Assembly: GCF_019645835.1 (NCBI RefSeq)
Contig: NZ_CP080998.1
Coordinates: 1,860,001-1,924,000, forward strand
Origin: Mycolicibacterium holsaticum DSM 44478 = JCM 12374
GTDB taxonomy: Bacteria; Actinomycetota; Actinomycetes; Mycobacteriales; Mycobacteriaceae
DNA: 64,000 nucleotides
Direction: 5' to 3'
Shown here: positions 17,993-45,549 of the stretch, one piece after another
Numbering within the stretch: the first letter of the stretch is position 1
Layout: the number at the start of each line of letters is the position of its first letter
Notes under the pieces: model-generated
The model's database searches: none
Seen by the model: the letters and a program-made list of their open reading frames with translations, nothing else
Told to the model about the DNA's origin: nothing
Program-made: the position numbers and the translations under genes

Positions 17993-18054
17993 TTTGATCA
18001 AAATAGTCGTTGGAACAAGCATAAGCGGCATTGACGACGCCGATTTTGATCATA
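17993..18054. promoter_or_regulatory. Twin operator 1 (TTTGATCAAA pair) between araC and the SDR gene
   Basis: A perfect TTTGATCAAA occupies 17993-18002 and a one-mismatch copy TTTGATCATA occupies 18045-18054. Their centres are 52 bp apart. The second copy falls between the proposed -35 and -10 of the SDR promoter, and the first lies just upstream of the TTGACG of the leftward araC promoter. This is the layout of a repressor bound to both promoters, possibly with DNA looping or side-by-side dimers. The likely binder is one or both of the GntR proteins encoded nearby. Confidence 0.7.
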
Positions 18055-18060
18055 TACGGT
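18031..18060 (+). promoter_or_regulatory. Candidate sigma-A promoter of the SDR gene
   Basis: TTGACG at 18031-18036 and TACGGT at 18055-18060 are separated by 18 bp and fit the mycobacterial TTGAC/TANNNT pattern. The operator copy TTTGATCATA fills the end of the spacer, so a bound repressor would block polymerase. Predicted transcription starts near 18067, leaving a leader of about 70 bases. Confidence 0.5.
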
Positions 18061-18139
18061 CACAGTGAGTTCGCGGCGAAAACATGCACCGGGGGTGCGC
18101 CGCGGATCATCAAACCCTGCTACGGCGTGAGGAATTGAC

Positions 18140-18916
18140 TTGAAACTCGACGGCAAGGTCGCGATCGTCACGGGCACCGGCGCCGGCATAGGTCGTGCGA
18201 CAGTGCAGCGTTTAGCAGACGAAGGCTGTCGCCTGGTCGTCAACGACATCAACGACGATTACTTGCGTGCGCTTGTCGAGACGCTGCCGCCGTCCACGGT
18301 GCTGCCCGTCGCCGGCGACGCTTCGGTTGAGCAGACCGCCACCGCCCTTGTGGCGCAGGCCCTCGATGCGTACGGACGAGTCGACATTCTCGTCAACGCT
18401 GTTGGGAACATGTTCATCAAGGACCCGGTCGATATCACTGTGGACGAGTGGGATCGGGTGATGGCGGTGAACTTGCGCAGCGCCTTCTTGTGTTGCAAGG
18501 CAGTCCTGCCGACGATGATCGCGCAGCGGTCCGGAGCGATCGTCAACCTCGCGTCGATCTCGTCATACGTCGGTCAAGAGATCAACGGAGAAAGCACGAT
18601 CGCGTACAACGTCACCAAGGCCGCCGTTCGTCAGCTGACCACCTCACTGGCGACGCGGTACGCGCGGGATGGGGTCCGGGTCAATTGCGTCGTCCCTGGA
18701 CCGACTCGGACCATGGCCTTGCAGCACTTCTATGCCGGGATGCCACAGGAGCAGTCGGACGCTGTCTTCCAGGCCGTCGGTGAAGAAACCACCGCCATCG
18801 GTCGAAGCGCCGAGCCGGAGGAGATCGCGGCTGCTATCGCGTTTCTGGTATCCGACGACGCGTCGTACATGGTGGGCACCGCGCTCACGGTGGACGGTGG
18901 CTTCCTGGCGCGTTAG
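18140..18916 (+). CDS. Short-chain dehydrogenase/reductase
   Basis: 258 residues, a classical SDR. The NAD(P) loop is TGTGAGIG at residues 11-18, NAVGN is the NNAG-like motif, the catalytic serine lies in NLASISSYVG, and the YxxxK pair is Y156/K160 (YNVTK). The C-terminal MVGTALTVDGGFLA is typical. It oxidises or reduces an alcohol/ketone, here probably an intermediate of the surrounding pathway. TTG at 18140 is chosen because GAGGA lies six bases before it. It is a single-gene unit under twin operator 1 and converges with gntR (3 bp between stops). Substrate unknown. Confidence 0.85.
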   Translation: MKLDGKVAIVTGTGAGIGRATVQRLADEGCRLVVNDINDDYLRALVETLPPSTVLPVAGDASVEQTATALVAQALDAYGRVDILVNAVGNMFIKDPVDITVDEWDRVMAVNLRSAFLCCKAVLPTMIAQRSGAIVNLASISSYVGQEINGESTIAYNVTKAAVRQLTTSLATRYARDGVRVNCVVPGPTRTMALQHFYAGMPQEQSDAVFQAVGEETTAIGRSAEPEEIAAAIAFLVSDDASYMVGTALTVDGGFLAR

Positions 18917-18919
18917 CGC

Positions 18920-19588
18920 TTAGAACATGTCCTCGCCGCCGAGTTCACGGGCGACGAGGTTGGCGGTATACGCCAAATGCGTGCTGAGTTCGCGTGCGGC
19001 GACGCGAGGATTTCGCCTGGCGCAGGCGTCGATGATCCGCTCGTGCTCGAGCCGGCGCGCCTCGCGGTCGCCACGGTGCGGAATCGACACGAGCCGATAG
19101 CGCTCGCTGTTGACCCACAGCGGCATGATGAGTTTGGTCAACCACGGGGACCGGGCGGCCTCGTAGATCGCAAAGTGCAGCGCCGTGTGCGCTTCCCGCG
19201 ATGCCATGGTGTTCGCTGCAGTGGCGGTGTGCTCGTCCAGCGCTTTGCGCGCCTTTTCCTCGTCCTCGTCGGTGAAGCGGGATGCGGCCCGCTCCACAGC
19301 GAGTACCTCGAGCGCAAGCCGGGCTTCGTAGGTGTTGTACAGGTCATCGAGCGAGAAGCTGCCGACCCGCGCGCCGCGGCGAGGATCTTGTTCCACCAGC
19401 CCGAGCGACTCCAAGCTGAGCAGTGCGCCGCGGACCGGCATCATGCTCATCCCGAGCCGGTCGGCGAGCGCCTTCAGCCGAAGTGGTGAGCCAGGAGGAA
19501 GCTTGCCCGTGACGATCTCTTCCCGAAGGATCTCCACCGCGTCCTCGACCCTCGTCGTAGGCCTCGGCTTACTCGTAGTGCCGCTCAA
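18920..19588 (-). CDS. GntR-family (FCD) transcriptional regulator, first paralogue
   Basis: 222 residues. A winged helix (about residues 12-78) is followed by an all-helical FCD effector domain with the expected histidines (HTALHFAIYEAARSPWL and RLEHERIIDACARRNPRVAAREL). It closely resembles the regulator at 29364-30068: over 45 residues of the helix-turn-helix region I count about 36 identities. One deviation is MPVRGAL, where GntR proteins normally have VREAL at this point; the other paralogue keeps the Glu. It is the last gene of the long minus-strand operon, 56 bp after the VOC gene. It is a likely repressor of the TTTGATCAAA regulon. Confidence 0.88.
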   Translation of the reverse strand: MSGTTSKPRPTTRVEDAVEILREEIVTGKLPPGSPLRLKALADRLGMSMMPVRGALLSLESLGLVEQDPRRGARVGSFSLDDLYNTYEARLALEVLAVERAASRFTDEDEEKARKALDEHTATAANTMASREAHTALHFAIYEAARSPWLTKLIMPLWVNSERYRLVSIPHRGDREARRLEHERIIDACARRNPRVAARELSTHLAYTANLVARELGGEDMF

Positions 19589-19644
19589 AAACCCTTCTCC
19601 ATCCGCAGCGTCTGCGTCAGCACGGCAAAACCGTCATCGCCTCA

Positions 19645-20112
19645 CTATATGTCGCGGACCGTGTCCATACCCTGCGCCTTCCCCGACGGCGCACCCGCTG
19701 TGTCCGGCTCCACGAGCTCGACGGGCAGCCCGTCTGGGTCGAGCAGGAACACCCACATCGCGGCGGCGGTGTCGCTGTGCAACGGTGGGGACAGAAAGCG
19801 GACACCCTCGGCGCTGAGCCTGCGATGCCACGCCTGGATGTCGTCGACTTGCAGTGCGATATGCGCCGATCCGACATCGTGTTCCTCGGGTGCGCGTTGC
19901 TCACCGCTGACACCGTATTCGCGCAGTTCGAGACGCACCCCCGGCGCAGCCATGAAGGCGCAGCGCAGCCGCCCACCGATGCCGGCGGCATCGGCTACCA
20001 CGATGGTTCGTTCATGGGCAAAGCCCAGCGACCCGTAGAACGCCACCGAGCGCGGCAGGTCGGAAACAGTGAAGGAGACGTGATGCAACCCCGTCATGGT
20101 GCCGGCGGTCAC
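19645..20112 (-). CDS. VOC (glyoxalase/extradiol-fold) protein
   Basis: 155 residues, a single vicinal-oxygen-chelate unit: LHHVSFTVSDLPRSVAFYGSLGF at the start, a metal-ligand-like Glu in VRLELREYG, then a second half-module with HIALQVDDIQAWHRRLSAEG and LLDPDGLPVELVEPD. Such proteins act as isomerases, lyases or dioxygenases using a divalent metal. The GTG start overlaps the stop of the FAD hydroxylase (GTGA), so the two are coupled and may act on consecutive intermediates. The exact reaction is not evident. Confidence 0.78.
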   Translation of the reverse strand: MTAGTMTGLHHVSFTVSDLPRSVAFYGSLGFAHERTIVVADAAGIGGRLRCAFMAAPGVRLELREYGVSGEQRAPEEHDVGSAHIALQVDDIQAWHRRLSAEGVRFLSPPLHSDTAAAMWVFLLDPDGLPVELVEPDTAGAPSGKAQGMDTVRDI

Positions 20113-21728
20113 GCGGGTTCCTCCGCCACTGCCGCGAGGGACCTGCCGACGGCCGTCAGGTAGGCGGTGACAATCGCCGCGGGTTCCGCAGAGGTGATCG
20201 CCGCCGTGAAGTCATCGGGCCGCACGAGGTAGGTAGTGCCGCTCTTGGCGCCGAAGCGCTTGGTCAGGGTGCCTCGGACGTCAAAGTAGGTCCGGCCGCG
20301 GGCCCGGGAGTCAAGGGGGGCGTCCCGGCAGCTGATCAGAACCTGCGCGAGTCCGGGTGGGGGATCGGTGAGCAACGCCGCCTCTGCGGGCCAGTCGACG
20401 AATGTCAACGCGACGAATTCGCGGCCGAGCAGGCTGTGCAGGCGCCGGAGCCGTCCGTCGGGGCCGAAGATGCTGCCGTCGGGGACCCGGTCTCCGCGTG
20501 CGATCGGTGGGCGCAGAACCGGCTTGGTGTCGGGCGCCCGAAGGTAGTTGAGCCCGAGAAGCGAACCGTTGTATGCCGCCGCCCACCGGCGACGCGGGTC
20601 GCGCAGCGCCGCCTGGCGTCGCACCGCGCCGGCCGCATTGATCAACCGATTGCCGCTGACTTCCATGAAGCTGCGCTTGCGGTTCTGCATCGCCAAGGCG
20701 GTGCTGGCGATGATGGGCTGACGTTCGGCGCTGTAGGTGTCCAACAGCGCCGGGCCCGCCCAGCCCCGCAGCACCCAGGCCAGCTTCCAACCGAAGTTGA
20801 AGGCGTCCTCGAAGCCGGTATTGAGGCCAAGGCCGCCGATCGGCGTGACCAGATGGGCGGCGTCGCCGAGGAGGAACACTCGGTCGACGCGGAACCGATC
20901 CAGGACGCGTCCCTGAGATGAATACTGCGCCCAATCGAGCACCCGGAACGGCTGATCTGGCCCGAGCTCCTCCCGCAAGCGCTGATCGATTTCGGCATCG
21001 GTGAGTTCAGGGGTGTCTGCCGGTGCCGCCCAACCCAACCGCCAGAACTTCGGCAGGCGGATCCGGGTGAAAAATCCGTTGGCGTCGCAGAGATAGGACA
21101 GTGAATCCGGAGGGTGTCCGTCGTTGCCGCGGACGTCAGTCTCGGCGTTGACGACGATGAACTGCTCGGCCGGAGTGATCTCGCGGTAGCGCAAGCCTAG
21201 CTGGCGACGCACGGTACTTTTGCCACCGTCACATCCGAGAACGTAATCGGCCTCGTATTCGACAGTGCCGTTGTCGGTTTCCAGCGTGAGCAGACAGCCG
21301 TCGTCGCGTTGGCTCAGGGCGGTCAGCCGGTGCCCGAAGCGGACCTCGGCCCCAAGCTCCACCGCGCGTTGCAGCAGAATCGGCTCGAACTCATGTTGAG
21401 GCAAGTTCAAGAAGAACGGGAACGCGGTGTCCTGTTGGAGTTCAGTCATGTCGACACGCATCAACGGCGTTTCTGTTGTCCGCCTGATGAAGTCGACGCT
21501 CTCGATCCGGATGCCCGATTCGAGTACTTTGTCGATGATGCCGAGACGGTCGAAAAATTCCAACGCTCGCGGAACGACCGTGCCGGCTTTTGGTGCCGAC
21601 GACGTCATCGCGTCGTCTTCGAACACCGTCACGGAGATGCCGTGACAGGCCAGCCAGGCGGCGGCGCTGAGCCCCACCGGCCCGGCGCCGATGACGGCGA
21701 TCCTGTGCTCGTTCAACGTGTCGTTCAC
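20109..21728 (-). CDS. FAD-dependent aromatic hydroxylase (PheA/TfdB/MhpA type)
   Basis: 539 residues, group A flavoprotein monooxygenase. The FAD fingerprint GAGPVG lies near residues 14-19, the dual NADPH/FAD motif CDGGKSTVRRQLG near 190, and the third motif LLGDAAHLVTPIGGLGLNTGFEDAFN near 300. The extra C-terminal thioredoxin-like domain of about 150 residues is that of phenol and 3-(3-hydroxyphenyl)propionate hydroxylases. It adds OH ortho to a phenolic OH, making a substrate for ring cleavage, and so may supply the extradiol-type dioxygenase encoded at 34.7 kb. GTG start. Substrate specificity cannot be assigned. Confidence 0.85.
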   Translation of the reverse strand: MNDTLNEHRIAVIGAGPVGLSAAAWLACHGISVTVFEDDAMTSSAPKAGTVVPRALEFFDRLGIIDKVLESGIRIESVDFIRRTTETPLMRVDMTELQQDTAFPFFLNLPQHEFEPILLQRAVELGAEVRFGHRLTALSQRDDGCLLTLETDNGTVEYEADYVLGCDGGKSTVRRQLGLRYREITPAEQFIVVNAETDVRGNDGHPPDSLSYLCDANGFFTRIRLPKFWRLGWAAPADTPELTDAEIDQRLREELGPDQPFRVLDWAQYSSQGRVLDRFRVDRVFLLGDAAHLVTPIGGLGLNTGFEDAFNFGWKLAWVLRGWAGPALLDTYSAERQPIIASTALAMQNRKRSFMEVSGNRLINAAGAVRRQAALRDPRRRWAAAYNGSLLGLNYLRAPDTKPVLRPPIARGDRVPDGSIFGPDGRLRRLHSLLGREFVALTFVDWPAEAALLTDPPPGLAQVLISCRDAPLDSRARGRTYFDVRGTLTKRFGAKSGTTYLVRPDDFTAAITSAEPAAIVTAYLTAVGRSLAAVAEEPA

Positions 21729-21768
21729 CTTCCGTCCTTACTGCGAGATTCGGTCTCGGGTGCTGGGC

Positions 21769-23385
21769 TCACCCGCGGCGGGGCAGGATGCGCGTAAGCC
21801 GGCGTCTGCGCAGAAGCGCGTCTGCGGCAAGGACACCCGATCCCGCGGACAATCCCGGTCCGGGGTGGGTGCTCGCGCCGATGTGTAGTAGCCGATCCAC
21901 CATGGTTCGATGGCTGGACCGGCCGGGCCGCGGACGCAGGATGAGGCTCTGGTCGAGTTCCAACGACCCGCTGTAGCCGTCGCCGCCCACATGATTGCGG
22001 TTGGCGGCCTCGAGGTCTGCGGGGGACAACACGGCGCGGCCCACCAGCGCCGAGTCCAGGTTGGTGATGTGCTGCGCGATGATCTCCTGAACTCGGTCGG
22101 CGAATGTCTCTCTGAGATGCTCGGTCCACACGCCGTTTCCGACATCGATCTCGCCCGCCGCGTCACCGACAGGACTGGACGGCAACTCGAGGAGTTGAAC
22201 CCACAACGTGGCACCGCCCTTCGGGGCGCGAGAGGGATCTGCGACCGTGTGCTGGCCGATTGCGATCGTGGGAGATGCGGGAAGCAGTCGTCGGGTAGCT
22301 TCGTTGACGGCTCGTGACACTCCGTCGAGTCCCGGTGTCAGGTTCACCGATGCGGCTTGGGCTAGCCGGGAATCGCCCCGCCAGCGAGGCTGCTCGCTCA
22401 GTGCCATGTGTATCTGCATTCCCGCGCGGCCATACCGGAATCGCCGAGCGTCACTGGCAACCGGGGGCGAAACATCCTCGTTCCGCAGGAGATCCAGGTA
22501 AAGCTGTTGGGGAGTCACGTTGGCGAGCACGGCTTGGCGCGCTTCGTAGCGTTCGCCGTCGGCGGTCACAACACCGGTCGCCGCTCCGCCCGACACCTCG
22601 ATGCGGGTGACGTCACGATTGGTTCGGCATTCGCCGCCACCGTCGCGGATGATGCCAGCCAGGGCCTCGATCAGCTTGACCCCGCCGCCCTGGGGAATCG
22701 GCATCCCAACCATCTCGATCGACAGCGCGACCATTTTCGCCATCAACGCAGAGGTCACGGACTCCGGTCCGAGGCCACCGTGGAGGGGCAGCGGTGCGAA
22801 AAAGCCGCGGGCAGGTTCGGATTGGTACTCCGCCGTCACCCAGTCACGGCAGCTTTCGAGTAGGTCGCCTGCGTAGCGCAGGCTGCCGTCGCGCCCCAGC
22901 CGGCGGTAGGCAGTGACGCCGAGTTTCAGCGTCGCCAACGACCAAAACTCTTTCCCCATCAAATGAGTGGTGGTCTGCTGATGTCGGCCGAACCAGTCGG
23001 CGAGGCGATCCCAGGCCGCGCCGTCGGCGTGGTGGTGGCGCGTGAACTCGGCGACATTCTGCTCGTGCGACGACGTCAGCAGGACCGCGTCGTGGTGTGG
23101 GGAAGCGTAGGCAGTCTGTACCGGTGCGAACGTGTATTGCAGTCCGCGGGCGTCGAGTTCAGGCTTGAGCCGCTGGTATGCCTCGCTCAGCAGAAACAGC
23201 ACGTGAAACCCGGAGAAGACGTCGTGGGTGTAACCCGGCGCGGTGAGCTCGGCGGTCTGCACGGCGCCGCCGAGGCGGTCGCTGCTCTCCAGAACGCACA
23301 CGCCCCAGCCGGCGCGGGTCAGCAGCGCGCCGGCTACCAGGGAGTTGAGTCCACTCCCGATGATCACTGCGTCAAAACGTGGCAA
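21769..23385 (-). CDS. Phytoene-desaturase-related FAD oxidoreductase
   Basis: 538 residues. The N-terminal VIIGSGLNSLVAGALL with LESSDRLGGAVQT is the dinucleotide fold of the amine oxidase/phytoene desaturase superfamily, and HIGASTHPGPGLSAGSG near the C-terminus is the matching closing FAD motif. The family (PYROXD2-like) includes carotenoid desaturases, but no other carotenoid gene is present here. The enzyme sits inside a catabolic operon (4 bp from the SRPBCC gene). It more likely dehydrogenates a pathway intermediate. Its role is unassigned. Confidence 0.78.
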   Translation of the reverse strand: MPRFDAVIIGSGLNSLVAGALLTRAGWGVCVLESSDRLGGAVQTAELTAPGYTHDVFSGFHVLFLLSEAYQRLKPELDARGLQYTFAPVQTAYASPHHDAVLLTSSHEQNVAEFTRHHHADGAAWDRLADWFGRHQQTTTHLMGKEFWSLATLKLGVTAYRRLGRDGSLRYAGDLLESCRDWVTAEYQSEPARGFFAPLPLHGGLGPESVTSALMAKMVALSIEMVGMPIPQGGGVKLIEALAGIIRDGGGECRTNRDVTRIEVSGGAATGVVTADGERYEARQAVLANVTPQQLYLDLLRNEDVSPPVASDARRFRYGRAGMQIHMALSEQPRWRGDSRLAQAASVNLTPGLDGVSRAVNEATRRLLPASPTIAIGQHTVADPSRAPKGGATLWVQLLELPSSPVGDAAGEIDVGNGVWTEHLRETFADRVQEIIAQHITNLDSALVGRAVLSPADLEAANRNHVGGDGYSGSLELDQSLILRPRPGRSSHRTMVDRLLHIGASTHPGPGLSAGSGVLAADALLRRRRLTRILPRRG

Positions 23386-23389
23386 TGGC

Positions 23390-23836
23390 TCAGACCGAAC
23401 CCAAGTGCGATACGAACGCCGCGAAGGCGGTATCGATCTGTTGTGACACCAGAAGAGGCGCGACGTGCTGAGTCATCCCGACGACGGGGCCGCGCAATAC
23501 GACGGATGCGGTCCATCGCAGCGTTGTGGAGTTGGGATCGGGCGCGGCGCCCAGCACGATCCTGTTGTCGAAGGTGACGTGAACGCCGTCTCCGAGTGCG
23601 GTGCCCGCGAAGCGTGCGCTCTCGCCCGGTGTGCGTTCGACGCACTTCACCCTGGCGGTGAGGTGCAGTTTGCCGAGGCCGAGCGGAAATACGCAGCGTG
23701 CGCGGATTTCGCCGGACGATTGCACCGAAACGTCCTGGACCACCGGGATCAAGCCGAGGAAGGTGGCGGGCTCGGCGATCGCGTCCCAGGTCGTCTCCGG
23801 TGATGCCTCGACCAAGCGGGTCCCATCAAAGTTCAT
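23390..23836 (-). CDS. SRPBCC/CoxG-like protein
   Basis: 148 residues of the START/SRPBCC fold (MNFDGTRLVEASPETTWDAI, then FLGLIPVVQDV). It resembles CoxG, an accessory protein encoded with many molybdenum hydroxylases and thought to help enzyme maturation or membrane attachment. The ATG at 23836 overlaps the TGA of the CoxL-like gene, which decides the start against longer readings. Its location right after the large subunit supports the CoxG role. Confidence 0.75.
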   Translation of the reverse strand: MNFDGTRLVEASPETTWDAIAEPATFLGLIPVVQDVSVQSSGEIRARCVFPLGLGKLHLTARVKCVERTPGESARFAGTALGDGVHVTFDNRIVLGAAPDPNSTTLRWTASVVLRGPVVGMTQHVAPLLVSQQIDTAFAAFVSHLGSV

Positions 23837-26301
23837 CGTGACTCCACGATCACTCGGCGTTGGCTGGCCTCGGGTTCGTGGATGAGCGACCACACGCGTT
23901 GTGGGTCGTTGAAACTTTCATGCACCACCGCTCGTATCCCTGCGGCCCGCAATGCATCTTGAACTGCCGCGCTGATGGTGTGCAGGCCTGCACCGCCGCC
24001 CTCGCCCATCCCCTTCGCGCCCACCGGTCCGAATGGCGACGGGGTGACGACCTCGCCGGTGTGAAGATCAGGCATGTCGAGGGCAGTCGGCACGTGGTAT
24101 TGGTAGAAGTTCGACGTCAGCAACTGCCCGTGTTCGTCGTATTCGTAGCTTTCGGTGAGCGCGGCGCCCAGGCCATGGGCCAACGCGCCGTGCACCTGAC
24201 CCTCCACGATCATCGGGTTGACCCGTACCCCGCAGTCGTCAACGGCGACATACCGCAGAATTTCGATTGCCCCGGTGTCCGGGTCGATTTCGATGACCGC
24301 CAGGTGTACCTGCGACGCATACGTGAGCGTCAAGTTGCCGAACTTCCGTTCCACATCTGGCAGGGCGAACGGTGGCCGGTACACGTAACGACAGTTGAGC
24401 GTCACATCCAAATCGGCTGGGTAGTCGAGGTTGTCGACGTTCACCAGACTCGCCAGCTCGAAAAACGTGAGCGATCCGCCGTGGGGAGCCAGGGCCGCTC
24501 CCTTGGCGAGGACGATCTCGGCGGCAGGTGCCCCGAGCACCGCGCCGGCGAGGAGTCGGATCTCAGCGGCCAGCTTCTCCGCAGCACCTTTGGTCGCACC
24601 CAGTCCGGTGACGGCGAATTGACTGGCGTTGGTGCCCGACCAGCCGGCATGCGTGTTGCGGCGCGAGTCGTGCCCGCTGTGCACGATGACGTCATCGGGT
24701 GTCACACCGAGGATGTCGGCCGCTACCTGTGCGGCGGTGGTTTCGTGTCCTTGGCCCTGTGGCGCCGAGCCAAGCGACAGCACCACCTCGCCGGAAAGGT
24801 CCAATTTGATGGTCGCGACCTGGTTGTTGCCGGAGACGGGGATGTGCGGGTTCGCCAGACGCACCTGCGCGTAGTTCTGGGTGCCCGAGTCCAGGGTGGA
24901 TCCGATGCCGATACCCAGCAGCTTGCCGTTGTTGCGGACGCCGCGTTGAGTTCGGAACCTGTCGTAATCTGCGAGTTCCAAGGCGATGTCGAGGGACTGC
25001 GTGTAATCACCGGAGTCGTAGATCCCCCCGCTGGGAGTTTCGTACGGAAAGTCCGTGGCCGGGATGTAATTGCGCTTCCGGATCTCGACCGGATCGAAAC
25101 CGAGTTCGTGGCTCACGATGTCGATGATCCGTTCGGTCAACCACAGATGCTGCATCCGTGAGTAGCCGCGGTTCGCCGAACTCGGCGTCTTATTGGTGAT
25201 GACTTGTCTCATGTCGACGCGGATGTTCCGCCACAGATAACATCCCGGAGTCACCTGGGTCCAGAGCACGGCACCTGTTGGCTCGTAGCGGGGGAAGGCG
25301 CCGACGTCGTCTATCGCCTTCGCCGAAAACCCCAGCAGGGTACCGTCTTTCGCCACAGCGACTTCGATGTCCTGGAACCAACGGTCGGCACCGTGTGCAT
25401 TCGCGGTCTGCTGTTCGGTGCGCCACTCGGTCCACTTGACGGGACGGCCCAGCTTGCGGGCCAGTAGACAAGCCGCGGTCACATAGGTGTATCCGGTGAG
25501 TTTGTTTCCGAACCCGCCACCGATGTCGCCGGTGATCAGGTGCAACTTGGCGGCGGGAACCCTGAGCGCACCAGAGATCCAGGTGATCGACGGACCGGGA
25601 CCGTGCAGGTTGCAGGTGACGGTGAACTCACCTGTGCCCGCGTCGAACTCCGCAACGGAGCCGGAGCATTCCAGCGGAGTCGAAGAGAACCTGTGGAAGT
25701 ACAGTTCTGAGATCCGAAGTACATGATCGGCATCTCGCAGCGCCGCGTCGACATCGCCGTAGTCGAACAGGGCGGACAATACGACGTTGGTCCCGGCATC
25801 CTCGTGCACGATCGGCGCGTCGTTCTCGGTTGCCTTGCGGGCATCCATCAGCGGGTCAAGAGGCTCGTACTCTACTTCTACCAATTCAGCGGCATCACAG
25901 GCTATTTCGCGGGTGGCCGCCACGACCGCAGCGACGGGGTGCCCTGCCCAGCATGCCTTGTCCACGGCCAGGCAGTATTCGGTGATGGCGCTTGCATCGC
26001 CGGGTGCGACCTGCCAGTACGGATCGGTGAGGTCCGCTGCCTCGCGTCCGGTGAGGGTTCCATACACCCCGGGAAGTGCCTCGGCCTGCGACACATCCAC
26101 CGAGACGATGCGTGCATGCGCGTACGGACTGCGGACGAAGTGCAGGTAGCCCATACCGTAACGCTTGACGTCATCGACGAACTTGCCTTGCCCTTTGAGG
26201 AGTCGTCGGTCTTCCTTGCGTTTGAGCCGTTGACCGGTCCAAGCTTCGGTTGCGGTGATTGCCGAGGAAGCCTCTGCGGTGTCGTGGAGGTCGCTACTCA
26301 C
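23833..26301 (-). CDS. Molybdenum hydroxylase large subunit (CoxL/xanthine dehydrogenase family)
   Basis: 822 residues. It has the N-terminal hammerhead region (LLKGQGKFVDD, RSPYAHARIVSVD), the GDIGGGFGNKLTGY stretch that contacts the molybdopterin cofactor, and the C-terminal GMGEGG loop with the catalytic Glu near residue 767. The active-site loop reads SANRGYSRMQHL near residue 378. It lacks the AYRCSFR motif of true CO dehydrogenase, so this is a hydroxylase of another substrate, such as an N-heteroaromatic or aldehyde. It is encoded with its iron-sulfur and FAD subunits. It overlaps CoxS by 8 bp and the CoxG-like gene by ATGA. Confidence 0.85.
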   Translation of the reverse strand: MSSDLHDTAEASSAITATEAWTGQRLKRKEDRRLLKGQGKFVDDVKRYGMGYLHFVRSPYAHARIVSVDVSQAEALPGVYGTLTGREAADLTDPYWQVAPGDASAITEYCLAVDKACWAGHPVAAVVAATREIACDAAELVEVEYEPLDPLMDARKATENDAPIVHEDAGTNVVLSALFDYGDVDAALRDADHVLRISELYFHRFSSTPLECSGSVAEFDAGTGEFTVTCNLHGPGPSITWISGALRVPAAKLHLITGDIGGGFGNKLTGYTYVTAACLLARKLGRPVKWTEWRTEQQTANAHGADRWFQDIEVAVAKDGTLLGFSAKAIDDVGAFPRYEPTGAVLWTQVTPGCYLWRNIRVDMRQVITNKTPSSANRGYSRMQHLWLTERIIDIVSHELGFDPVEIRKRNYIPATDFPYETPSGGIYDSGDYTQSLDIALELADYDRFRTQRGVRNNGKLLGIGIGSTLDSGTQNYAQVRLANPHIPVSGNNQVATIKLDLSGEVVLSLGSAPQGQGHETTAAQVAADILGVTPDDVIVHSGHDSRRNTHAGWSGTNASQFAVTGLGATKGAAEKLAAEIRLLAGAVLGAPAAEIVLAKGAALAPHGGSLTFFELASLVNVDNLDYPADLDVTLNCRYVYRPPFALPDVERKFGNLTLTYASQVHLAVIEIDPDTGAIEILRYVAVDDCGVRVNPMIVEGQVHGALAHGLGAALTESYEYDEHGQLLTSNFYQYHVPTALDMPDLHTGEVVTPSPFGPVGAKGMGEGGGAGLHTISAAVQDALRAAGIRAVVHESFNDPQRVWSLIHEPEASQRRVIVESR

Positions 26302-27607: not shown

Positions 27608-27693
27608 CGCTTACTCCTTGTGGGTCGGCTCGAATGATGAGCGCGTAGGTCCCCGGGGAAGTCTGCCTCGCGGGAGGGGTCGACGGTGGCGAG

Positions 27694-28569: not shown

Positions 28570-28570
28570 A

Positions 28571-28978
28571 TCAGCGGCCTGACTGGCCGATCGCGGCGAT
28601 GGCCTCGATCTCGATCAGGAGTTCCTTGTCCACCAGCCGGGAAACCTCGAACATCGACGACGCCGGTAGCGGTGCGGAAAAGTAGCGCTTGCGCACCTCG
28701 TGGATGTCATCGAACTGCTCCATGTCCCGGATGAAGACCGTGAGCTTGACGATGTCGGCGAGACTGCCGCCGGCCTCCTCGAGGATGGACTTCATATTCT
28801 CGAGGATGGTTTCGGTCTGGACCTTGACGTCGCCGACGCCGACCACCTCGCCCGAAGGAGCGCGGGACGTCAGACCGCTGACAAACAGCAACTCTTTCGG
28901 ATCAGTCACCTTGATGGCCTGGGAGAACACTCCCAACGGTGTGTTCAGCTTCTTGCTGTAGACCTCGGAAATGGACAT
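28571..28978 (-). CDS. RidA (YjgF/YER057c/UK114) family protein without the usual arginine
   Basis: 135 residues with the RidA fold: LNTPLGVFSQAIKV, VGDVKVQTETILENMKSILEEAGGSLADIVKLTVFIRDM. Deaminating Rid proteins have a catalytic Arg in a P-A-R-S-x-V-E-V motif; here the segment reads PLPASSMFEVSRL, so Ser replaces Arg. The imine deaminase function is therefore not expected, and it belongs with the divergent Rid subgroups often found in catabolic clusters. It lies between the cupin (2 bp) and FAH (1 bp) genes. Confidence 0.85.
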   Translation of the reverse strand: MSISEVYSKKLNTPLGVFSQAIKVTDPKELLFVSGLTSRAPSGEVVGVGDVKVQTETILENMKSILEEAGGSLADIVKLTVFIRDMEQFDDIHEVRKRYFSAPLPASSMFEVSRLVDKELLIEIEAIAAIGQSGR

Positions 28979-28980
28979 GG

Positions 28981-29367
28981 TTACCTCGCATCTTCATCGT
29001 TGTCATACCAATCGGGACGTTGGGGGTAGTGCGGTCCGTCGTAGACCTCCAGAAAGACCGTGTCCTCCAGAGCCTCGGTCGGTCCGTGAAAGTTGCCGGC
29101 GGGATTCCAGTAGAAGGATCCGGTGGTCAGGACTTCACCGCTGTGTAGGTACTTGTAGCTGCCCGACAACACGAACATGAACTGGTTCGAGGCGTGGCAG
29201 TGGTTCTGCGGAATGCCACAGCCCTTCTCGATCTTGATCTGCGCGATCGAGGCGCCAGAGTCATCGTCGCGCCACAGCATACGTTCGGAAACACCGGGCA
29301 ATGACTTTGCCCGCCAGGGCATTTCCTCTGCCCGCAAGATGAGTTCAGTGAGTTCAGGGCTGTTCAA
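28981..29367 (-). CDS. Cupin-domain protein
   Basis: 128 residues. One small beta-barrel with HCHASNQFMFVLSGSYKYL and a later NPAGNFHGPTEALEDTVFLEVYDGP gives histidines suited to bind one metal ion. Such proteins in aromatic clusters act as ring- or side-chain-cleaving dioxygenases, or as sensors. TTG at 29367 is chosen: it overlaps the TGA of gntR (TTGA) and has AGGAAG seven bases upstream. The open frame extends much further upstream but only opposite gntR coding sequence. Function unassigned. Confidence 0.75.
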   Translation of the reverse strand: MNSPELTELILRAEEMPWRAKSLPGVSERMLWRDDDSGASIAQIKIEKGCGIPQNHCHASNQFMFVLSGSYKYLHSGEVLTTGSFYWNPAGNFHGPTEALEDTVFLEVYDGPHYPQRPDWYDNDEDAR

Positions 29368-30068
29368 AACAGGGCTTCCTCTCCAAGTTGACGGGCCACG
29401 ACGTTGACCGTCTTGGCCAGGTGCTCGTGCAGTTCGCGTGACGCAACGCGAGGATTGCCGCGGATACACGCTTCCAAGATCCGCTCGTGTTCGAGTCGAC
29501 GGTCCTTGACGGCGCCTCGGTGGGGCAGAGACAGCATTCGATAGCGTTCGCTGTTCGCCCACAGCGGTGTGATCAGGCGAATCAACCAGGCGGATCCGGC
29601 TGCTTCGTAGATCGAAAAGTGGAACGCCGTGTGCGCCTTGCGCGACTCCTCCAGCGCACCACGTGCGGCCGCGGCGCATTGCCGTTCCAAGTGCGCGAGC
29701 GCCACCTTCCCGTGTTCGGGCGTGAAACGATCGGCGGCCAGCTCGACAGCCAAGGTCTCGAGTCGGATCCGAGCCCGATACGTGTCCATCAGGTCTTGTA
29801 CGGAGAACAGGCTCACCCGCGCCCCGCGCCTGGGCTGTTGCTCCACCAGGCCCAGGGATTCCAGCACCCGCAGCGCCTCCCGAACCGGCATCATGCTCAT
29901 GCCCAATCGCTCCGCCAGCGGTGCAAGCCGAAGCGGGGCCCCGGGCTCAAGCGATCCCGAGACGATCAAATCTTGCAGCGCATTGACAGCCATATCAACG
30001 CGTGTCTGTGCAGTGCCCGTCGGCGATTCCTCGATGGCGACCACCGACGTCGTGCTTGCCGATGTCAT
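29364..30068 (-). CDS. GntR-family (FCD) transcriptional regulator, second paralogue
   Basis: 234 residues with a winged helix (about 25-92) and an FCD domain (about 100-225; HTAFHFSIYEAAGSAWL, RLEHERILEACIRGNPRVASREL). It keeps the canonical MPVREALRVLESLGLVEQ, unlike the paralogue at 18920-19588. It is the first gene of the minus-strand operon and divergent from the styA unit. It faces a TTTGATCAAA twin operator, so autoregulation is likely. FadR-type regulators release DNA when a small acid or acyl-CoA binds the FCD pocket. Confidence 0.9.
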   Translation of the reverse strand: MTSASTTSVVAIEESPTGTAQTRVDMAVNALQDLIVSGSLEPGAPLRLAPLAERLGMSMMPVREALRVLESLGLVEQQPRRGARVSLFSVQDLMDTYRARIRLETLAVELAADRFTPEHGKVALAHLERQCAAAARGALEESRKAHTAFHFSIYEAAGSAWLIRLITPLWANSERYRMLSLPHRGAVKDRRLEHERILEACIRGNPRVASRELHEHLAKTVNVVARQLGEEALF

Positions 30069-30151: not shown

Positions 30152-30213
30152 TTTGATCAAAGAAAAGCTCAAACCCGCGAAAAAGGTAGCAAAAAGCGAA
30201 CTTTGTGATCAAA
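30152..30213. promoter_or_regulatory. Twin operator 2 between gntR and the styA unit
   Basis: A perfect TTTGATCAAA lies at 30152-30161 and TGTGATCAAA at 30204-30213; centres are 52 bp apart. The right copy ends five bases before the -35 of the styA promoter. The left copy, read leftward, is followed by a T and TATGGGTTAC, the same extension found at the fadD-mce operator. The gap between gntR and the first downstream start holds little else. Confidence 0.72.
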
Positions 30214-30218
30214 CATGC

Positions 30219-30248: not shown

Positions 30249-30273
30249 CGACCCACCGATAGAAGAGGTGCCG

Positions 30274-30432
30274 ATGGCCCGCGAGGGTGCAGATCTTGCA
30301 GATCTGACGGGACGCGTCTGCGAAGTCGATCTCCATGGCACCGACGATGCCCGAAGGGGCGGGCGCGATCCCGTTGAATGCAGAAAACCTGTTGGATACC
30401 AATACGTTTCGTTTGCAAAGGATGAACTATGA
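30274..30432 (+). CDS. Possible small leader ORF (52 codons) coupled to styA
   Basis: An ATG at 30274 is preceded at good distance by GAAGAGG and opens 52 codons ending in a TGA that overlaps the ATG of the StyA gene (ATGA). The predicted peptide is hydrophilic, has two cysteines (positions 16 and 36) and matches nothing I know. Against it, only about half of its third codon positions are G or C, well below neighbouring genes. It may be a translated leader that couples ribosomes into styA rather than a functional protein. Confidence 0.35.
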   Translation: MAREGADLADLTGRVCEVDLHGTDDARRGGRDPVECRKPVGYQYVSFAKDEL

Positions 30433-31700
30433 GGACGATCTCGATCATCGGTGCGGGTCACAGCGGCCTGCTTTTGGGGCTCGGCCTGCTTGAGCACGGG
30501 TACGACGTGACGATCGTTTCCGACCGCACGCCGGGCCAGGTTCGTCGCGGCTTCGTCCCCTCGTCGGCGGGGATCTCGCCGGACGCACAGGCTTTCGAGC
30601 GGGAGCTCGGAGTCAACTTCTGGGATGACGTGTTGGTCCCCTCAGACGGCGTGCACTTCGAAATGATCGTGCCAGGCGGGACCGTTGCGCTGTCGATCGA
30701 CGGCCCGTGGAACCCCGAAAAAATCTCCTGGCAGGCAGTCGATCTGCGGCTCAAGTGCGCCCGGTGGGCCGAGGAGTTCCAGCGGCGCGGTGGCAACTTG
30801 GTGATACAGGACGCCAGGCTGGAGAACATCGAGGCGTACGCGAGCGCAAGCGACCTGACCATCGTCGCCGCGGGGAAGGGGGATATCAGCGGACTTTTCG
30901 AGCGTGATCAACAACGGTCGGTCTACACCGAGGCCCAGCGGCACCTGGCGATGGTCGTCGTTGACGGTCATCCCGCCTGGGCTGAGTCGGTTGGTTTCGA
31001 GTGCATGTACTTCGCTGCCCACGCGGGGGCGGGCGAGATATTCGGGACGCACTTTCTCAACACAACCGAGCGCGACTCGGTGTTCATGATCTTCGAGGCG
31101 GTGCCGGGTGGGCCGATCGATCGCTTCGACGATGCGACGGATCCAGAGGAAATCCTGAAGCGTTGCAAGGAGGTACTTCAAGATATCGCTCCGGACCAAT
31201 ACGCGCTGGCTCGCAACGCGCGACTGGCGGATCCGGCTAGCGCCATCCGCGGCCGAATCACCCCTGGAGTCCGCCGGCCCGTGGCTACGCTGCCATCGGG
31301 TGCGCAGGTGTTGGGACTCGGTGACGTGCTGAGCTTGAAGGACCCGGTCAGCGGTCAAGGCTCCAACAGTGCTGCCAAAGGCGCGCGCCACTATCTGCAC
31401 CGCATCGTGGAGCGCGATAGCCGACCGTTTGACGCGGAATGGATGTCAGATGTGTGGGAGACGTTCTGGCAAGACTACGAGCAGTACGCGTATACCTTCA
31501 CCAACAGCCTCTTGGACCCGCCGTCACAGTCCCAACTCGCCCTGTTCACCGCCGCGCAAGAGCGAAAAGACCTGGCGGAGCGAATTTTCGGAAACTTCTC
31601 ACATCCGCCCAACGCCTTTCCGTGGTTCTTCGATCCGGTCGAAGCCGGGCGCGTCATCGGGGGCGCGGCGACCGCCCCGGCAGTTGGTGTCGGTGACTAG
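30429..31700 (+). CDS. Styrene/indole monooxygenase oxygenase component (StyA1-like)
   Basis: 423 residues, the length of free StyA proteins. The FAD motif is G8-A-G10-H-S-G13, and DPVSGQGSNSAAKGARHYL near residue 300 is the second flavin motif. It is homologous along its length to the N-terminal domain of the fused enzyme at 15.2 kb but lacks the reductase domain. Family members need reduced FAD from a separate reductase, and the fused protein is the only candidate in the window. The ATG has AAAGGA six bases upstream. It heads a unit with the nitronate-monooxygenase-like gene 136 bp downstream. Confidence 0.85.
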   Translation: MRTISIIGAGHSGLLLGLGLLEHGYDVTIVSDRTPGQVRRGFVPSSAGISPDAQAFERELGVNFWDDVLVPSDGVHFEMIVPGGTVALSIDGPWNPEKISWQAVDLRLKCARWAEEFQRRGGNLVIQDARLENIEAYASASDLTIVAAGKGDISGLFERDQQRSVYTEAQRHLAMVVVDGHPAWAESVGFECMYFAAHAGAGEIFGTHFLNTTERDSVFMIFEAVPGGPIDRFDDATDPEEILKRCKEVLQDIAPDQYALARNARLADPASAIRGRITPGVRRPVATLPSGAQVLGLGDVLSLKDPVSGQGSNSAAKGARHYLHRIVERDSRPFDAEWMSDVWETFWQDYEQYAYTFTNSLLDPPSQSQLALFTAAQERKDLAERIFGNFSHPPNAFPWFFDPVEAGRVIGGAATAPAVGVGD

Positions 31701-31743
31701 CACCCGTCCTCCCGGTACCAGGGCTGAGTGCGCGACGGGGTGA

Positions 31744-32820
<1,077 letters not shown>

Positions 32821-32885: not shown

Positions 32886-32947
32886 TTTGATCAAAGATGC
32901 CCAGATTGTCGCGAAATGCCCCGTAATTGGTGCATCTTATGATCAAA
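32886..32947. promoter_or_regulatory. Twin operator 3 upstream of the hydrolase-dioxygenase unit
   Basis: A perfect TTTGATCAAA lies at 32886-32895 and TATGATCAAA at 32938-32947; centres are again 52 bp apart. The pair fills the 184-bp gap between the nitronate-monooxygenase-like gene and the CocE-type hydrolase start. No convincing -35/-10 pair could be placed; TATGAT within the right copy is one -10 candidate. Confidence 0.7.
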
Positions 32948-33004
32948 TATTCGTGGCCGGTGTGGGAGGCAGCGTACCCGTGCAACGGGCAGAAAGAGGT
33001 GAAG

Positions 33005-34750
33005 ATGGCCCACGACGGCCAAGGTATGCAGATTGATTGGGATGTCGAGATCGAAGCCGATGACGGCCTACTCCTTCGCGCAGACGTCTACCGCCCGACG
33101 GAGGGGCGACATCCGGTACTTCTCTGCTACACCCCGTATGGAAAAGGGCTGAACTTCGCCGAAGGCCGGCCGGATCAATGGACCGCCCTCTGCACCCAGC
33201 ACCCCGATGTCCCCACGGGCTCCAGTAATCGCTACGCCAATTGGGAGACGATCGATCCCGAGAAATGGGTTCCACACGGGTACGCGGTGGTGCGTGTCGA
33301 CTCACGGGGCATGGGGCGCAGCCCCGGATATGTGGACCACTGGTCCCCTCGCGAGACGCAAGACTATTACGACTGCATCGAGTGGGCTGGAACCCAATCC
33401 TGGAGTACCGGCCGGGTCGGACTCATCGGAATCTCCTATGTCGCAATGAATCAGTGGCAGGTTGCCGCATTGCGACCACCGCACTTGGCGGCCATCTGTC
33501 CGTGGGAGGGTTGTTCCGATCACTACCGCGACGCACGCCGCCACGGCGGGATCCTGTCGACGTTCATCGTCCGCTGGTATCGCAACCGGATCGACAAGGC
33601 GCAGTTCGGCGTTGGCGAACGTGGCGGGCGAAATCCCGTCACAGATGTGCCGGTCTTCGGAGACGAAACCTTGCCGCCCGAGGTCCGTGCGCAAAATCGT
33701 GCCGACTTGATTGCCGAACTTCACGACCATCCCACGTTCGACGAGTACTTCGAGTCGCTCAACGCGGACCTGTCGGCCATCGAGGTGCCGCTGTTGTCTG
33801 CGGCCAACATCGGCGGGCAGGGCCTTCACTTGCGCGGTAACGTCGAGGGCTTCCTGCGCGCGGGGTCGCGGCGGAAGTGGCTTGAGTTCCACAACCTCGA
33901 GCACTGGACCCATTTCTACACCGATTACGGGCGGGAACTGCAAAGGCGCTTCTTCGACCACTTTCTCAAGGACGAGCCGAACGGCTGGGACGATGTTCCC
34001 CCGGTAATTCTCAACGTTCGCCACGTCGACGGGACTACGTCGCTTCGATACGAACGGGACTGGCCCCTTCCAGGGACTGACTGGACAAAGCTGTACCTAG
34101 ATCATTTCGACCAAAGGCTCGACCGGAAGCCACCCGCAGGCGAACGGCAGGCGAGCTACCAGGCTTTGAGCGGCGGCCTCACTTACCGTACGGTTTTCGA
34201 CGTCGATACGGAGATCACCGGGCCCTCGGCCGTGAAGCTCTTCGTCTCGTCATCGACGCGTGACGTCGACCTTTTCCTGGTGCTGCGGGTCTTCGACCCC
34301 CTTGGCGACGAGGTCACGTTTGCCGGCGCGAACGATCCGCACACTCCGGTCTCGTTGGGTTGGCTGCGCGGATCGCACCGAAAGCTCGATCCCGTTCAGA
34401 GCACGCCCTATCGGCCCTACCATACCCATGACGATCCGACGCCTCTTGTGCCGCAGACCGTTTACGAGCTCGACGTCGAAATCTGGCCGACGTCGATTGT
34501 CGTCCCGGCCGGCTACACACTCGCCCTCACGGTGCAGGGGCACGACTATCAGCATGAGTCGTCCGACAGCCAAACCTCGGTGGACTGGTACAACCCCGCC
34601 GACGCAATGCACGGAGACACCCGGGATCGACCCGCGGACGTCTTTGGCGGGACGGTCACCCTGCACTCGTCCGATCGTCAACTGCCTTATGTCATCTTGC
34701 CTGTCATACCAGCCGAACCTCGGAGGAACAGTGGGAATTCAGCAGATTGA
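33005..34750 (+). CDS. CocE/NonD-family alpha/beta hydrolase
   Basis: 581 residues. The N-terminal part is the X-Pro dipeptidyl-peptidase S15-like catalytic domain: YTPYGKG, VRVDSRGMGRSPG and the nucleophile elbow GISYVAMNQW (family pattern GxSYxG, with Ala in place of the last Gly). LEHWTHFYT probably carries the catalytic His. The C-terminal third is the jelly-roll domain (SAVKLFVSSSTRDVDLFLVLRVFDP). Such enzymes hydrolyse esters or amides, as in cocaine esterase and alpha-amino acid ester hydrolases. The ATG at 33005 with AAAGAGG upstream is preferred over a longer reading from 32927. The stop overlaps the next gene by 20 bp. Confidence 0.85.
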   Translation: MAHDGQGMQIDWDVEIEADDGLLLRADVYRPTEGRHPVLLCYTPYGKGLNFAEGRPDQWTALCTQHPDVPTGSSNRYANWETIDPEKWVPHGYAVVRVDSRGMGRSPGYVDHWSPRETQDYYDCIEWAGTQSWSTGRVGLIGISYVAMNQWQVAALRPPHLAAICPWEGCSDHYRDARRHGGILSTFIVRWYRNRIDKAQFGVGERGGRNPVTDVPVFGDETLPPEVRAQNRADLIAELHDHPTFDEYFESLNADLSAIEVPLLSAANIGGQGLHLRGNVEGFLRAGSRRKWLEFHNLEHWTHFYTDYGRELQRRFFDHFLKDEPNGWDDVPPVILNVRHVDGTTSLRYERDWPLPGTDWTKLYLDHFDQRLDRKPPAGERQASYQALSGGLTYRTVFDVDTEITGPSAVKLFVSSSTRDVDLFLVLRVFDPLGDEVTFAGANDPHTPVSLGWLRGSHRKLDPVQSTPYRPYHTHDDPTPLVPQTVYELDVEIWPTSIVVPAGYTLALTVQGHDYQHESSDSQTSVDWYNPADAMHGDTRDRPADVFGGTVTLHSSDRQLPYVILPVIPAEPRRNSGNSAD

Positions 34751-35612
34751 ACACCTCGAGCTCTACGTCAACGACGTCGACTCGACCGTAGGTTTCTACC
34801 AGGATGTCGTCGGCCTGGTCGAAATCGCGCGCACCGGTGATGCGGTTTATCTGGGCTGCGGGTTTGATGGCAACTGGGATGTCGCGTTCAAAGAAGGGCC
34901 CACTGGAGTCAGTCGTGTCGCCTTCCGCGCTGAAGACGTGGCTGAAATCGAATCTGCCGAGCGCGCGTTGAACCAAGCGGGATTGACCACGACTCGCACC
35001 GACGGAGCGCATCCGAATCAGGCCGAGGGAATGCGATGGGTTCTTGACTCCGGTCTCGCGGTGGACTACGTGCTGGTGGCTGACAACCGTTACCACGTGC
35101 TCGCAGAGCCGACCATCGCGTCACGCCGCGGTTTTCAGCCATTGGACCTGGACCACATCGCAATTCAGTCTGCTGACGTCAAAGCGGCATCGAAGTTGTT
35201 CGTCGACGTACTCGGCTGGCGCGAGACCGAACACATCGAATTGGATCCCAGCTCCGAGATGTGGCACGGCAGCTTCATTCGCAAGGGCCTGCTGCACCAT
35301 GACGTCGCGGTGACGCTGGGGCAGGCACGCATGCACCACTGGGCGCTGGCGATGTCGAGCATCGATCACGTGAAGATGGCAATCGATGTCCTCGCCGCGG
35401 CTGGTACGCACCTCGAGCTCGGGGTGAGCCGTCATCGAGCGGGTGGCAACATCTTTGCTTACTTCATCATGCCCGACGGCCACAGGCTCGAATTATCTTG
35501 TGAGATGTCGATTGTCAACCATGACACCCCATCGCGAACCTGGTCGGACCGTGCCGGGTTCGACGCGTGGGGCAACCTCTTTCCGACTCCGGACTTTCTC
35601 AAGGGGACGTGA
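34731..35612 (+). CDS. Type I extradiol-type ring-cleavage dioxygenase (two VOC modules)
   Basis: 293 residues, the usual length for catechol 2,3-dioxygenase-type enzymes. Two VOC modules start at EHLELYVNDVDSTVGFYQDV and LDHIAIQSADVKAASKLFVDV. The iron ligands expected in the second module are present: H142 (LDHIA), H202 or H203 (MHHWA) and E254 (HRLELS), with spacing like H146/H210/E260 of known enzymes. It would cleave a catechol-like ring next to the hydroxyls. GTG at 34731 has GGAGGA four bases upstream and lies 20 bp inside the hydrolase gene. The substrate may be supplied by the FAD hydroxylase at 20.1 kb. Confidence 0.82.
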   Translation: MGIQQIEHLELYVNDVDSTVGFYQDVVGLVEIARTGDAVYLGCGFDGNWDVAFKEGPTGVSRVAFRAEDVAEIESAERALNQAGLTTTRTDGAHPNQAEGMRWVLDSGLAVDYVLVADNRYHVLAEPTIASRRGFQPLDLDHIAIQSADVKAASKLFVDVLGWRETEHIELDPSSEMWHGSFIRKGLLHHDVAVTLGQARMHHWALAMSSIDHVKMAIDVLAAAGTHLELGVSRHRAGGNIFAYFIMPDGHRLELSCEMSIVNHDTPSRTWSDRAGFDAWGNLFPTPDFLKGT

Positions 35613-35613
35613 C

Positions 35614-35775
35614 GTGACCGACCTCTTGGTAGTGATCGCCTTTGCCACAGCGATTGTGGGTGCGTTGCTGGTCACGTGCTGGAAGGGGTTACGCAGCGAT
35701 CTCTTCGTCCATTTCGCCCGTGAATACGACTCCTGCGACCAACGTCCGCTCTCCGGCGACCCAGTGGAGGAGTAG
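35614..35775 (+). CDS. Small single-pass membrane protein (53 residues)
   Basis: GTG at 35614, one base after the dioxygenase stop and seven bases after AAGGGG, opens a frame of 53 codons. Residues about 3-23 are a strong hydrophobic helix (TDLLVVIAFATAIVGALLV), followed by a basic, polar tail. The tight spacing suggests it is translated with the dioxygenase. No family is recognised; it could anchor a soluble enzyme or be part of transport. Confidence 0.5.
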   Translation: MTDLLVVIAFATAIVGALLVTCWKGLRSDLFVHFAREYDSCDQRPLSGDPVEE

Positions 35776-35847
35776 TCCGCGGTAGCTCTGCGCGTGCGCG
35801 GCATCCGGAAGGTCGCGCCAGCCGACCATGCGCCGAGCCACCACTAG

Positions 35848-35909
35848 TTTGATCACAAAGATGCCTTTTGAGGCCTAAGAGATTCGAAAATGGCTTTATT
35901 TTGATCAAA
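35848..35909. promoter_or_regulatory. Twin operator 4 upstream of the fadD-mce operon
   Basis: TTTGATCACA lies at 35848-35857 and a perfect TTTGATCAAA at 35900-35909; centres are 52 bp apart. The perfect copy is followed by C and TATGGGTTAC and then a TACTCT at 35918-35923 that could serve as -10. The same extension occurs in inverted orientation at the gntR promoter. Only about 250 bp separate the small membrane gene from fadD, and this pair is its main visible content. Confidence 0.72.
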
Positions 35910-45548: not shown

Positions 45549-45549
45549 C

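Follow-up and report, generated by a model that had tools for sequence, protein, structure and literature searches.

What reads the four paired palindromes lying between genes of an accessory block in Mycolicibacterium holsaticum DSM 44478 = JCM 12374, and does the constant distance within each pair matter? The window analyzed here (64,000 nucleotides; contig NZ_CP080998.1, positions 1,860,001 to 1,924,000 of the forward strand) holds four exact copies of the palindrome TTTGATCAAA, each with a one-mismatch partner whose start lies 52 base pairs (bp) away (+52 or -52 in 4/4), and a preliminary description had taken them for the operators of a defined regulon with cooperative or looped binding. 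All eight sites were recovered, and they face, as had been described, araC and a short-chain dehydrogenase (SDR) gene, gntR2 and styA, an S15 hydrolase-dioxygenase unit, and a fadD-mce unit. We favor, with a probability of about 0.78, the reading that these twin sites are operators of one regulon bound by GntR proteins; GntR2, encoded next to the second pair, is probably the best candidate binder, with GntR1 as its paralogue. That the two sites of each twin also cooperate is a separate proposition, to which we give even odds. The operators are as follows, with promoters taken throughout as predictions from a simple scan:

Operator 1L, 17993..18002: exact TTTGATCAAA, on the araC side of the araC/SDR divergent region.
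Operator 1R, 18045..18054: TTTGATCATA, overlapping the predicted SDR promoter TTGACG-N18-TACGGT, center at about -17.
Operator 2L, 30152..30161: exact TTTGATCAAA, proximal to the gntR2 operon (minus strand), center at about -25 of a weak predicted promoter with -10 TACTGT.
Operator 2R, 30204..30213: TGTGATCAAA, adjoining the predicted styA-ward promoter TTGACG-N18-TAGAGT on its upstream side, center at about -46 (2L at about -98).
Operator 3L, 32886..32895: exact TTTGATCAAA, distal site of the S15/CocE gene.
Operator 3R, 32938..32947: TATGATCAAA, proximal site of the S15/CocE gene.
Operator 4L, 35848..35857: TTTGATCACA, distal site of fadD-mce.
Operator 4R, 35900..35909: exact TTTGATCAAA, proximal site of fadD-mce, center at about -25 of a weak predicted promoter with -10 TACTCT.

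Sites within one mismatch of TTTGATCAAA occurred 10 times in the window against 0.46 expected, a number reached in 0/100 shuffles. Eight of the ten form the four pairs at 52 bp, and the other two (2731 and 40187) are unpaired and lie inside open reading frames. When the spacer of the twin pattern was left free from 41 to 53, the window returned the same four pairs and no others (mean of 0.00 in 100 shuffles). Across the 5.62-Mb genome, the search for similar pairs at unrelated loci returned TGATCA-N46-TGATCA in four copies, every one of them in the block (reversed control 0). Exact TTTGATCAAA is present five times genome-wide, four times in the block and once where a fadD-mce operon and an Mce1R-type gntR gene diverge, and sites with up to one mismatch number 37 (reversed control 6). 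Outside the window there are 26 one-mismatch sites; the 16 with an intact TGATCA core were examined for further regulon members, and 16/16 fell inside long stop-to-stop frames, which is a weak test, as the intergenic mce1 site also falls in such a frame. Some TGATCA-N46-TGATCA pair was present in 38/297 genomes of the genus, own genome counted, and at 29 loci retrieved from the other genomes each pair had at least two mismatches to TTTGATCAAA at both sites (the lowest mismatch pairs being 2 and 3), which is what chance would produce. The four twin sites are real and non-random, and their clustering is well supported.

The motif also appears to follow FCD-GntR genes across Actinomycetota, an association well supported by the surroundings of GntR2 relatives (49 loci from a contig search, and further ones from whole-genome searches). 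In 472 kb around such relatives, TTTGATCAAA was present in 16 copies at 9 of 29 loci (28 distinct), against four copies for 159 other palindromic 10-mers with one G/C per half, taken together. The 29-locus count leaves out L038 (same cluster, 99-100%), L044 and L046 (contigs of L136 and L140), L048-L085 (38 more distant loci of the 49), L099, and L101, and counts both L043 and L137, which are one contig and carry an exact site in neither. Relatives of GntR2 were found in 2/397 genomes of the order and 3/396 of the phylum (own genome in both counts), in 3/80 genomes of the genus Amycolatopsis, and in 1/118, 4/121, and 13/146 genomes of three further groups; among 396 genomes of the window's own genus (E-value 1e-40) they occurred in the own genome and one other (47% identical protein). 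The best match, 98% identical, was in Mycolicibacterium elephantis. Amycolatopsis jejuensis (10.1 Mb) has eight exact sites, six of them within 26 kb in a homologous cluster (compared with the window: molybdenum hydroxylase large subunit 69%, FAD monooxygenase 67%, S15 65-75%, dioxygenase 56%) and a seventh 2.5 kb from a second GntR2 relative. Both exact genomic sites of Nocardia vermiculata lie at its gntR locus (2/2; reversed control 1); Mycolicibacterium sp. CH28 has four, two at the GntR2-relative locus and one at an mce1-type locus; genome G966 has three, one at the gntR locus and one before molybdenum hydroxylase genes; and the genomes of L039 and L038 have two each, one at the locus in each.

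Other twins were observed at some of these loci. The second S15 gene of A. jejuensis (75% identical) has its own twin 63 bp apart (TTTGATCATA/TTTGATCAAA; L094 18526/18589), and near the gntR-FAA hydrolase loci of CH28 (L045 3755/3919) and Nocardia vermiculata (L040 55/225) exact sites lie 164 and 170 bp apart, a longer twin. Locus L038 is a 4.7-kb contig of a Rhodococcus-labelled metagenome-assembled genome, either mis-binned or a very recent transfer; it carries pair 1 at 52 bp and is no independent case, because its genes are 99-100% identical to those of the window.

The remaining exact site of the genome, the fifth, is flanked on one side by fadD (with yrbE after it) and on the other by the divergently oriented gene of a 230-amino-acid (aa) GntR protein, the same arrangement as that of fadD5 and Rv0165c (PMC2867952); the gene is called Mce1R-type from this synteny, without comparison to Rv0165c itself. 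A Mce1R-type protein was found in 32/39 genomes (E-value 1e-60), and in all 30 retrieved loci the motif lies 62-127 bp upstream of the start (18 TTTGATCAAA, 11 TTTGATAAAA, 1 TTTGATAAAG), other palindromes reaching at most 3/30 at one mismatch. The flanks of this motif are partly conserved, as expected of a promoter. A TTTGATCAAA-type palindrome is the probable, predicted operator of the Mce1R-like clade. Mce1R is described in PMC2867952 as a negative regulator whose operator, in 2010, had not been deciphered; PMC2018728 gives predicted operators of M. smegmatis GntR proteins (its Table 3), and MSMEG_0130, given as the Rv0165c orthologue, is not among them. In a literature search on Mce1R sites, none of the listed titles and abstract openings gave a Mce1R motif, the primary Mce1R paper lying outside the search and other papers possibly containing the motif; among the matches listed for the string TTTGATCAAA, no title concerned GntR or an Mce regulator. 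The mce1 loci resemble the window in having a GntR gene (a tblastn match to GntR1/2) that diverges from a row of fadD-yrbE(-mce) genes, in the upstream motif (30/30 loci), and in the lack of arginine at the helix position treated below, but they have a single site (a second one, 18 bp away, in 1/30) and one regulator, with about 37-38% identity to GntR2 in the matched region.

GntR1 and GntR2 are 63% identical, and Pfam GntR and FCD domains are above cut-off in both. The monomer model of GntR2 (mean predicted local distance difference test score 91.3) has six C-terminal helices in a VanR-like FCD fold, and its best template modeling (TM) scores among the 50 structure matches listed were to AlkR of the VanR group (9isw, 1.9 Å, TM 0.81/0.91). 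Residues H146, H150, H194, and H216 are invariant in 25 sequences, in a spacing resembling that of the metal ligands described for Atu1419 (Asn137, His141, His192, and His214; PMC7797058), and the fourth ligand would here be histidine. GntR1 and two relatives (P0012, P0014) have VRGAL in the recognition helix region instead of the VREAL of GntR2, and GntR1 may bind differently or act through GntR2.

Arg45 in the recognition helix of Atu1419 is reported to read an essential guanine of ATGTATACAT (PMC7797058), and AlkR likewise uses Arg45 (PMC12042122). In the structure-match alignments, Met59 of GntR2 is aligned to arginine of 3c7j, 7xp0, and 8pqm and to phenylalanine of TM0439; the Atu1419 match gives ranges alone (26-88 against chain 12-74, equal length), placing Met59 opposite residue 45 if gapless and in protein numbering. 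This guanine-reading position is Pro, Ile, Met, Val, or Ala in 121/123 collected proteins and Arg in none, the other two (AraC and one more) being outside the helix pattern; in 30 Mce1R-type proteins it is Ile, Val, or Ala. Replacement of the canonical helix-3 arginine in GntR2 fits an operator without GT...AC boxes. Such boxes are absent from TTTGATCAAA, which departs from the FadR-subfamily consensus TKGT...ACMA, described with GT and AC boxes 2-3 nucleotides apart (PMC4494728), and we infer that the substitution may cause the operator specificity.

The genes around the four pairs are the following:

16916..17953, minus strand: AraC-family regulator, adjoining pair 1; a rival binder.
18140..18916, plus strand: SDR, downstream of pair 1.
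18920..19588, minus strand: GntR1, FCD GntR paralogue, last gene of the gntR2 row.
19645..29367, minus strand: catabolic genes behind gntR2, comprising cupin, RidA, FAA hydrolase, three-subunit molybdenum hydroxylase, CoxG, CrtO/phytoene-desaturase-like FAD protein, FAD monooxygenase, and glyoxalase-fold protein.
29364..30068, minus strand: GntR2, FCD/VanR-type GntR regulator, first gene of the 11-kb row, adjoining pair 2.
30429..32820, plus strand: a flavin monooxygenase resembling StyA and a protein resembling nitronate monooxygenase, both downstream of pair 2.
33005..35612, plus strand: S15/CocE-NonD hydrolase and an extradiol dioxygenase resembling catechol 2,3-dioxygenase, both downstream of pair 3.
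36021..46977, plus strand: a row of genes downstream of pair 4, comprising fadD, two yrbE/MlaE permeases, and six more.

The dioxygenase frame, 450 aa long (34260-35612), and the hydrolase gene overlap; the matched domain of the dioxygenase begins near residue 160. The first two of the six genes after yrbE are mce-type by Pfam, and the other four are labelled mce by position and the earlier label. The block (about 15-47 kb) looks acquired, since its third-position guanine-cytosine (GC) content is mostly 0.72-0.83 against mostly 0.83-0.94 in the flanks and its overall GC is also below theirs; it is probably an acquired catabolic island, with a probable function in the uptake and breakdown of an aromatic or oily compound. 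Plasmid origin of the block was rejected, with 0 GntR2 relatives in 72,556 plasmid records (E-value 1e-30) and short, weak block matches in six records. At 15185-16900 a StyA-like monooxygenase is fused to a flavin reductase domain (styA2B-like), with no TTTGATCAAA pair in front, and at 26966-27060 an ARAGORN tRNA-His call, probably false, lies inside the molybdenum hydroxylase FAD-subunit gene.

The constant spacing had been presented as something not to be expected four times. The distance is indeed 52 bp in all four pairs, and it stays constant while the intergenic lengths differ (186, 360, 184, and 408); the promoters, however, are apparently not independent. Homology is clear between the leader that follows pair 2 on the styA side and the one that follows pair 3 (0/500 shuffles), and it is probable between the leader on the gntR2 side of pair 2 and that of pair 4 (p = 0.006; 28 comparisons, uncorrected). 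The spacers show weak kinship for 2 against reversed 4 (p = 0.002) and for 2 against 3 (p = 0.005), both values being uncorrected and the best from several tests. Operator 4R and reversed operator 2L have TTTGATCAAAYTATGGGTTACTSTTC in common, and pair 1 has no promoter kinship to the others at p 0.02. Promoter kinship as such is well supported, and the leaders and spacers together suggest that copying of the module probably started at the gntR2/styA region and went both ways. The 42-bp spacers have 8-18 of 42 positions in common yet are exactly 42 long in all four; this still points to selection for length, though four independent events would make a stronger case. As a separate observation, the styA leader (30214-30303, compared with 32948-33037) holds a start-codon region homologous to the S15 start, like a truncated S15 start.

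Neighboring sites (up to one mismatch, up to 110 bp apart) in the window and 31 other sources gave spacings of 52 (four times), 51, 65, and 63 (A. jejuensis), and 21 and 74 (L111). With 52 counted once (n = 6), a phase-zero test at 10.5 bp gave a p of about 0.001 and a Rayleigh test about 0.018, indicating clustering at whole helical turns. No general 52-bp rule for all relatives was found, since most of them have single sites and some have different spacings. A check of 36 exact sites outside the window for a degenerate partner 52 bp away gave one sequence with three mismatches (A. jejuensis 25414), which is not taken as evidence. What stands of the preliminary description is the regulon, which is well supported; its cooperative or looped part keeps a conditional form, given the different arrangements in relatives (51, 63, 65, 21, 74, or single) and the apparent common ancestry of the promoters of pairs 2, 3, and 4.

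The proximal and distal operator centers lie at -17/-69 (SDR), -25/-77 (fadD and gntR2), -46/-98 (styA), and -45/-96 (A. jejuensis S15) of the predicted promoters, those of fadD and gntR2 being weak, not top-scoring, and picked because they are common to both regions. The proximal site covers the predicted core promoter at SDR, fadD, and gntR2, which favors repression, in line with the negative role of Mce1R.

Several results weigh against the favored reading or its cooperative part. An exact site is missing from 20/29 relative loci and a site within one mismatch from 7/29 (some contigs being short), two of the eight genomes counted whole have no exact TTTGATCAAA, and sites in relatives are mostly single. 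GntR1 is deviant near the DNA-binding helix, and the arginine is also missing in TM0439 (Phe) and most scanned relatives, a set wider than the motif-bearing one, so that its loss alone does not define a TTTGATCAAA operator. The scan found no convincing promoter for araC and S15 of the window, and the proximal operator positions vary (about -17, -25, -46) relative to promoters that are predicted. The four equal spacings are not independent, since promoters 2, 3, and 4 appear related by duplication. The phase test comprises six values, of which a single cluster supplied three and a single locus two. When the 18 bp of mce1 locus L154 were included, p was about 0.004 (Rayleigh 0.04); when each genome contributed a single value (52, 51, 21), the phase p was 0.014 (Rayleigh 0.07).

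On the favored explanation, we infer that GntR1/GntR2 would bind and repress, one GntR dimer occupying each 10-bp palindrome. The proximal site would overlap or abut the promoter and the second would lie five helical turns off on the same face, so that two dimers could act jointly, by direct contact or as a dimer-of-dimers over a small loop, and silence the island operons together. A 52-bp loop needs sharp bending, so that direct cooperation, or polymerase exclusion by both dimers jointly, has the same likelihood as looping. The repressors would be released by a pathway metabolite, perhaps a carboxylate or a coenzyme A (CoA) ester formed by the FadD of the regulon; a CoA ester is a reasonable guess given the fold match to AlkR, which is released by acyl-CoA, and the presence of fadD in the regulon. 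The regulon would be autoregulatory and probably grew when the S15 and fadD-mce operons received copies of the gntR2/styA promoter. A more far-reaching version, which we consider less likely than not, assigns TTTGATCAAA as operator to a distinct clade of FCD-GntR proteins, Mce1R among them, whose members would read DNA with no arginine contacting a guanine. In catabolic islands this operator would have been doubled into a fixed-phase module (five or six turns) bridged by a GntR dimer-of-dimers, and copying of the module between promoters would have built the regulon.

The same GntR core could operate without cooperation, with independent dimers at each site, each serving its own promoter or adding occupancy, and with equal spacing inherited from one ancestral promoter. 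The location of pairs 1 and 2 in divergent regions, the apparent homology of promoters 2/3 and reversed 2/4, and the use in relatives of single sites or sites 164-170 bp apart would all follow, whereas pairs 3 and 4 serve one direction, the spacers kept their length with 8-18/42 positions in common, pair 1 stands without kinship at p 0.02, and the A. jejuensis spacings of 51 and 63 are near five and six turns. Constant distance despite varying intergenic length is, moreover, given as a mark of joint control in PMC4494728. We hold this arrangement to be a serious possibility, somewhat short of an even chance. Improbable by comparison is a dual regulator, in which upstream-bound GntR would recruit RNA polymerase and activate some promoters: the -35 boxes are indeed good in the predicted promoters of styA and A. 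jejuensis S15, where the operators lie at about -46/-98 and -45/-96, and GntR1/2 of Corynebacterium glutamicum are described as repressing gnt genes while their positions fit ptsG activation (PMC2230225), but the proximal site lies over the predicted core promoter in three cases (SDR, fadD, and gntR2), and Mce1R is described as a negative regulator (PMC2867952).

The AraC-family protein could also be the binder, the sites then being activator sites. Its gene flanks pair 1, pair 2 lies at about -46/-98 from the predicted styA promoter, and AraC proteins are frequent controllers of catabolic islands, binding near -45; they usually read longer direct repeats, however, and the sites here are short perfect palindromes. 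Searches by tblastn (limits 1e-8 and 1e-15) found 0 AraC relatives in the searched motif-bearing loci (A. jejuensis, Solirubrobacterales, Nocardia, and CH28), where GntR was matched, and for this reason GntR is favored; the motif also lies beside a GntR gene at mce1 loci, where AraC was not searched for. We consider AraC a very improbable binder. Chance, or a repeat-like element without regulatory role, has a negligible probability although TGATCA alone is common (41 in the window), being ruled out by the window shuffles with their near-zero expectation, the genome-wide twin count, the intergenic position at four promoter regions, the association with GntR genes across genera, and the conservation upstream of Mce1R-type genes.

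Among known systems, Atu1419 of Agrobacterium fabrum (VanR group) resembles the proposed regulators in its FCD fold, in the spacing of its metal-binding histidines, which is close to that of the putative ligands here, and in its 10-bp palindromes at autoregulated catabolic promoters with two sites per region (PMC7797058), as in 4/4 regulated regions of the window; a tetramer bridging two sites has been proposed for it (PMC7797058). It differs in its operator ATGTATACAT, read by Arg45, and in sites 190 and 109 bp apart, not 52 (PMC7797058). AlkR of Pseudomonas aeruginosa, the best TM match to the GntR2 model among those listed, represses catabolism of hydrophobic substrates until long-chain acyl-CoA releases it, but its operator is ATTGTCAGACAAT with an Arg45 contact, and it is described as a dimer with one main and two weak sites (PMC12042122). 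GntR1/GntR2 of C. glutamicum are likewise two paralogous GntR proteins on one regulon, unlike in that they control gluconate genes from sites near TNGTNNNACNA, with no fixed twin seen in the available part of the source (PMC2230225).

The twin itself is a variant within a known kind of GntR regulation, and the probable operator of the Mce1R-like clade is the broader and more useful result, as it would tie an operator to a GntR clade whose sites escape the canonical rules. The kinship of the promoters points to promoter copying as a way for regulons to grow, and the inducer would give a handle on the function of the island.

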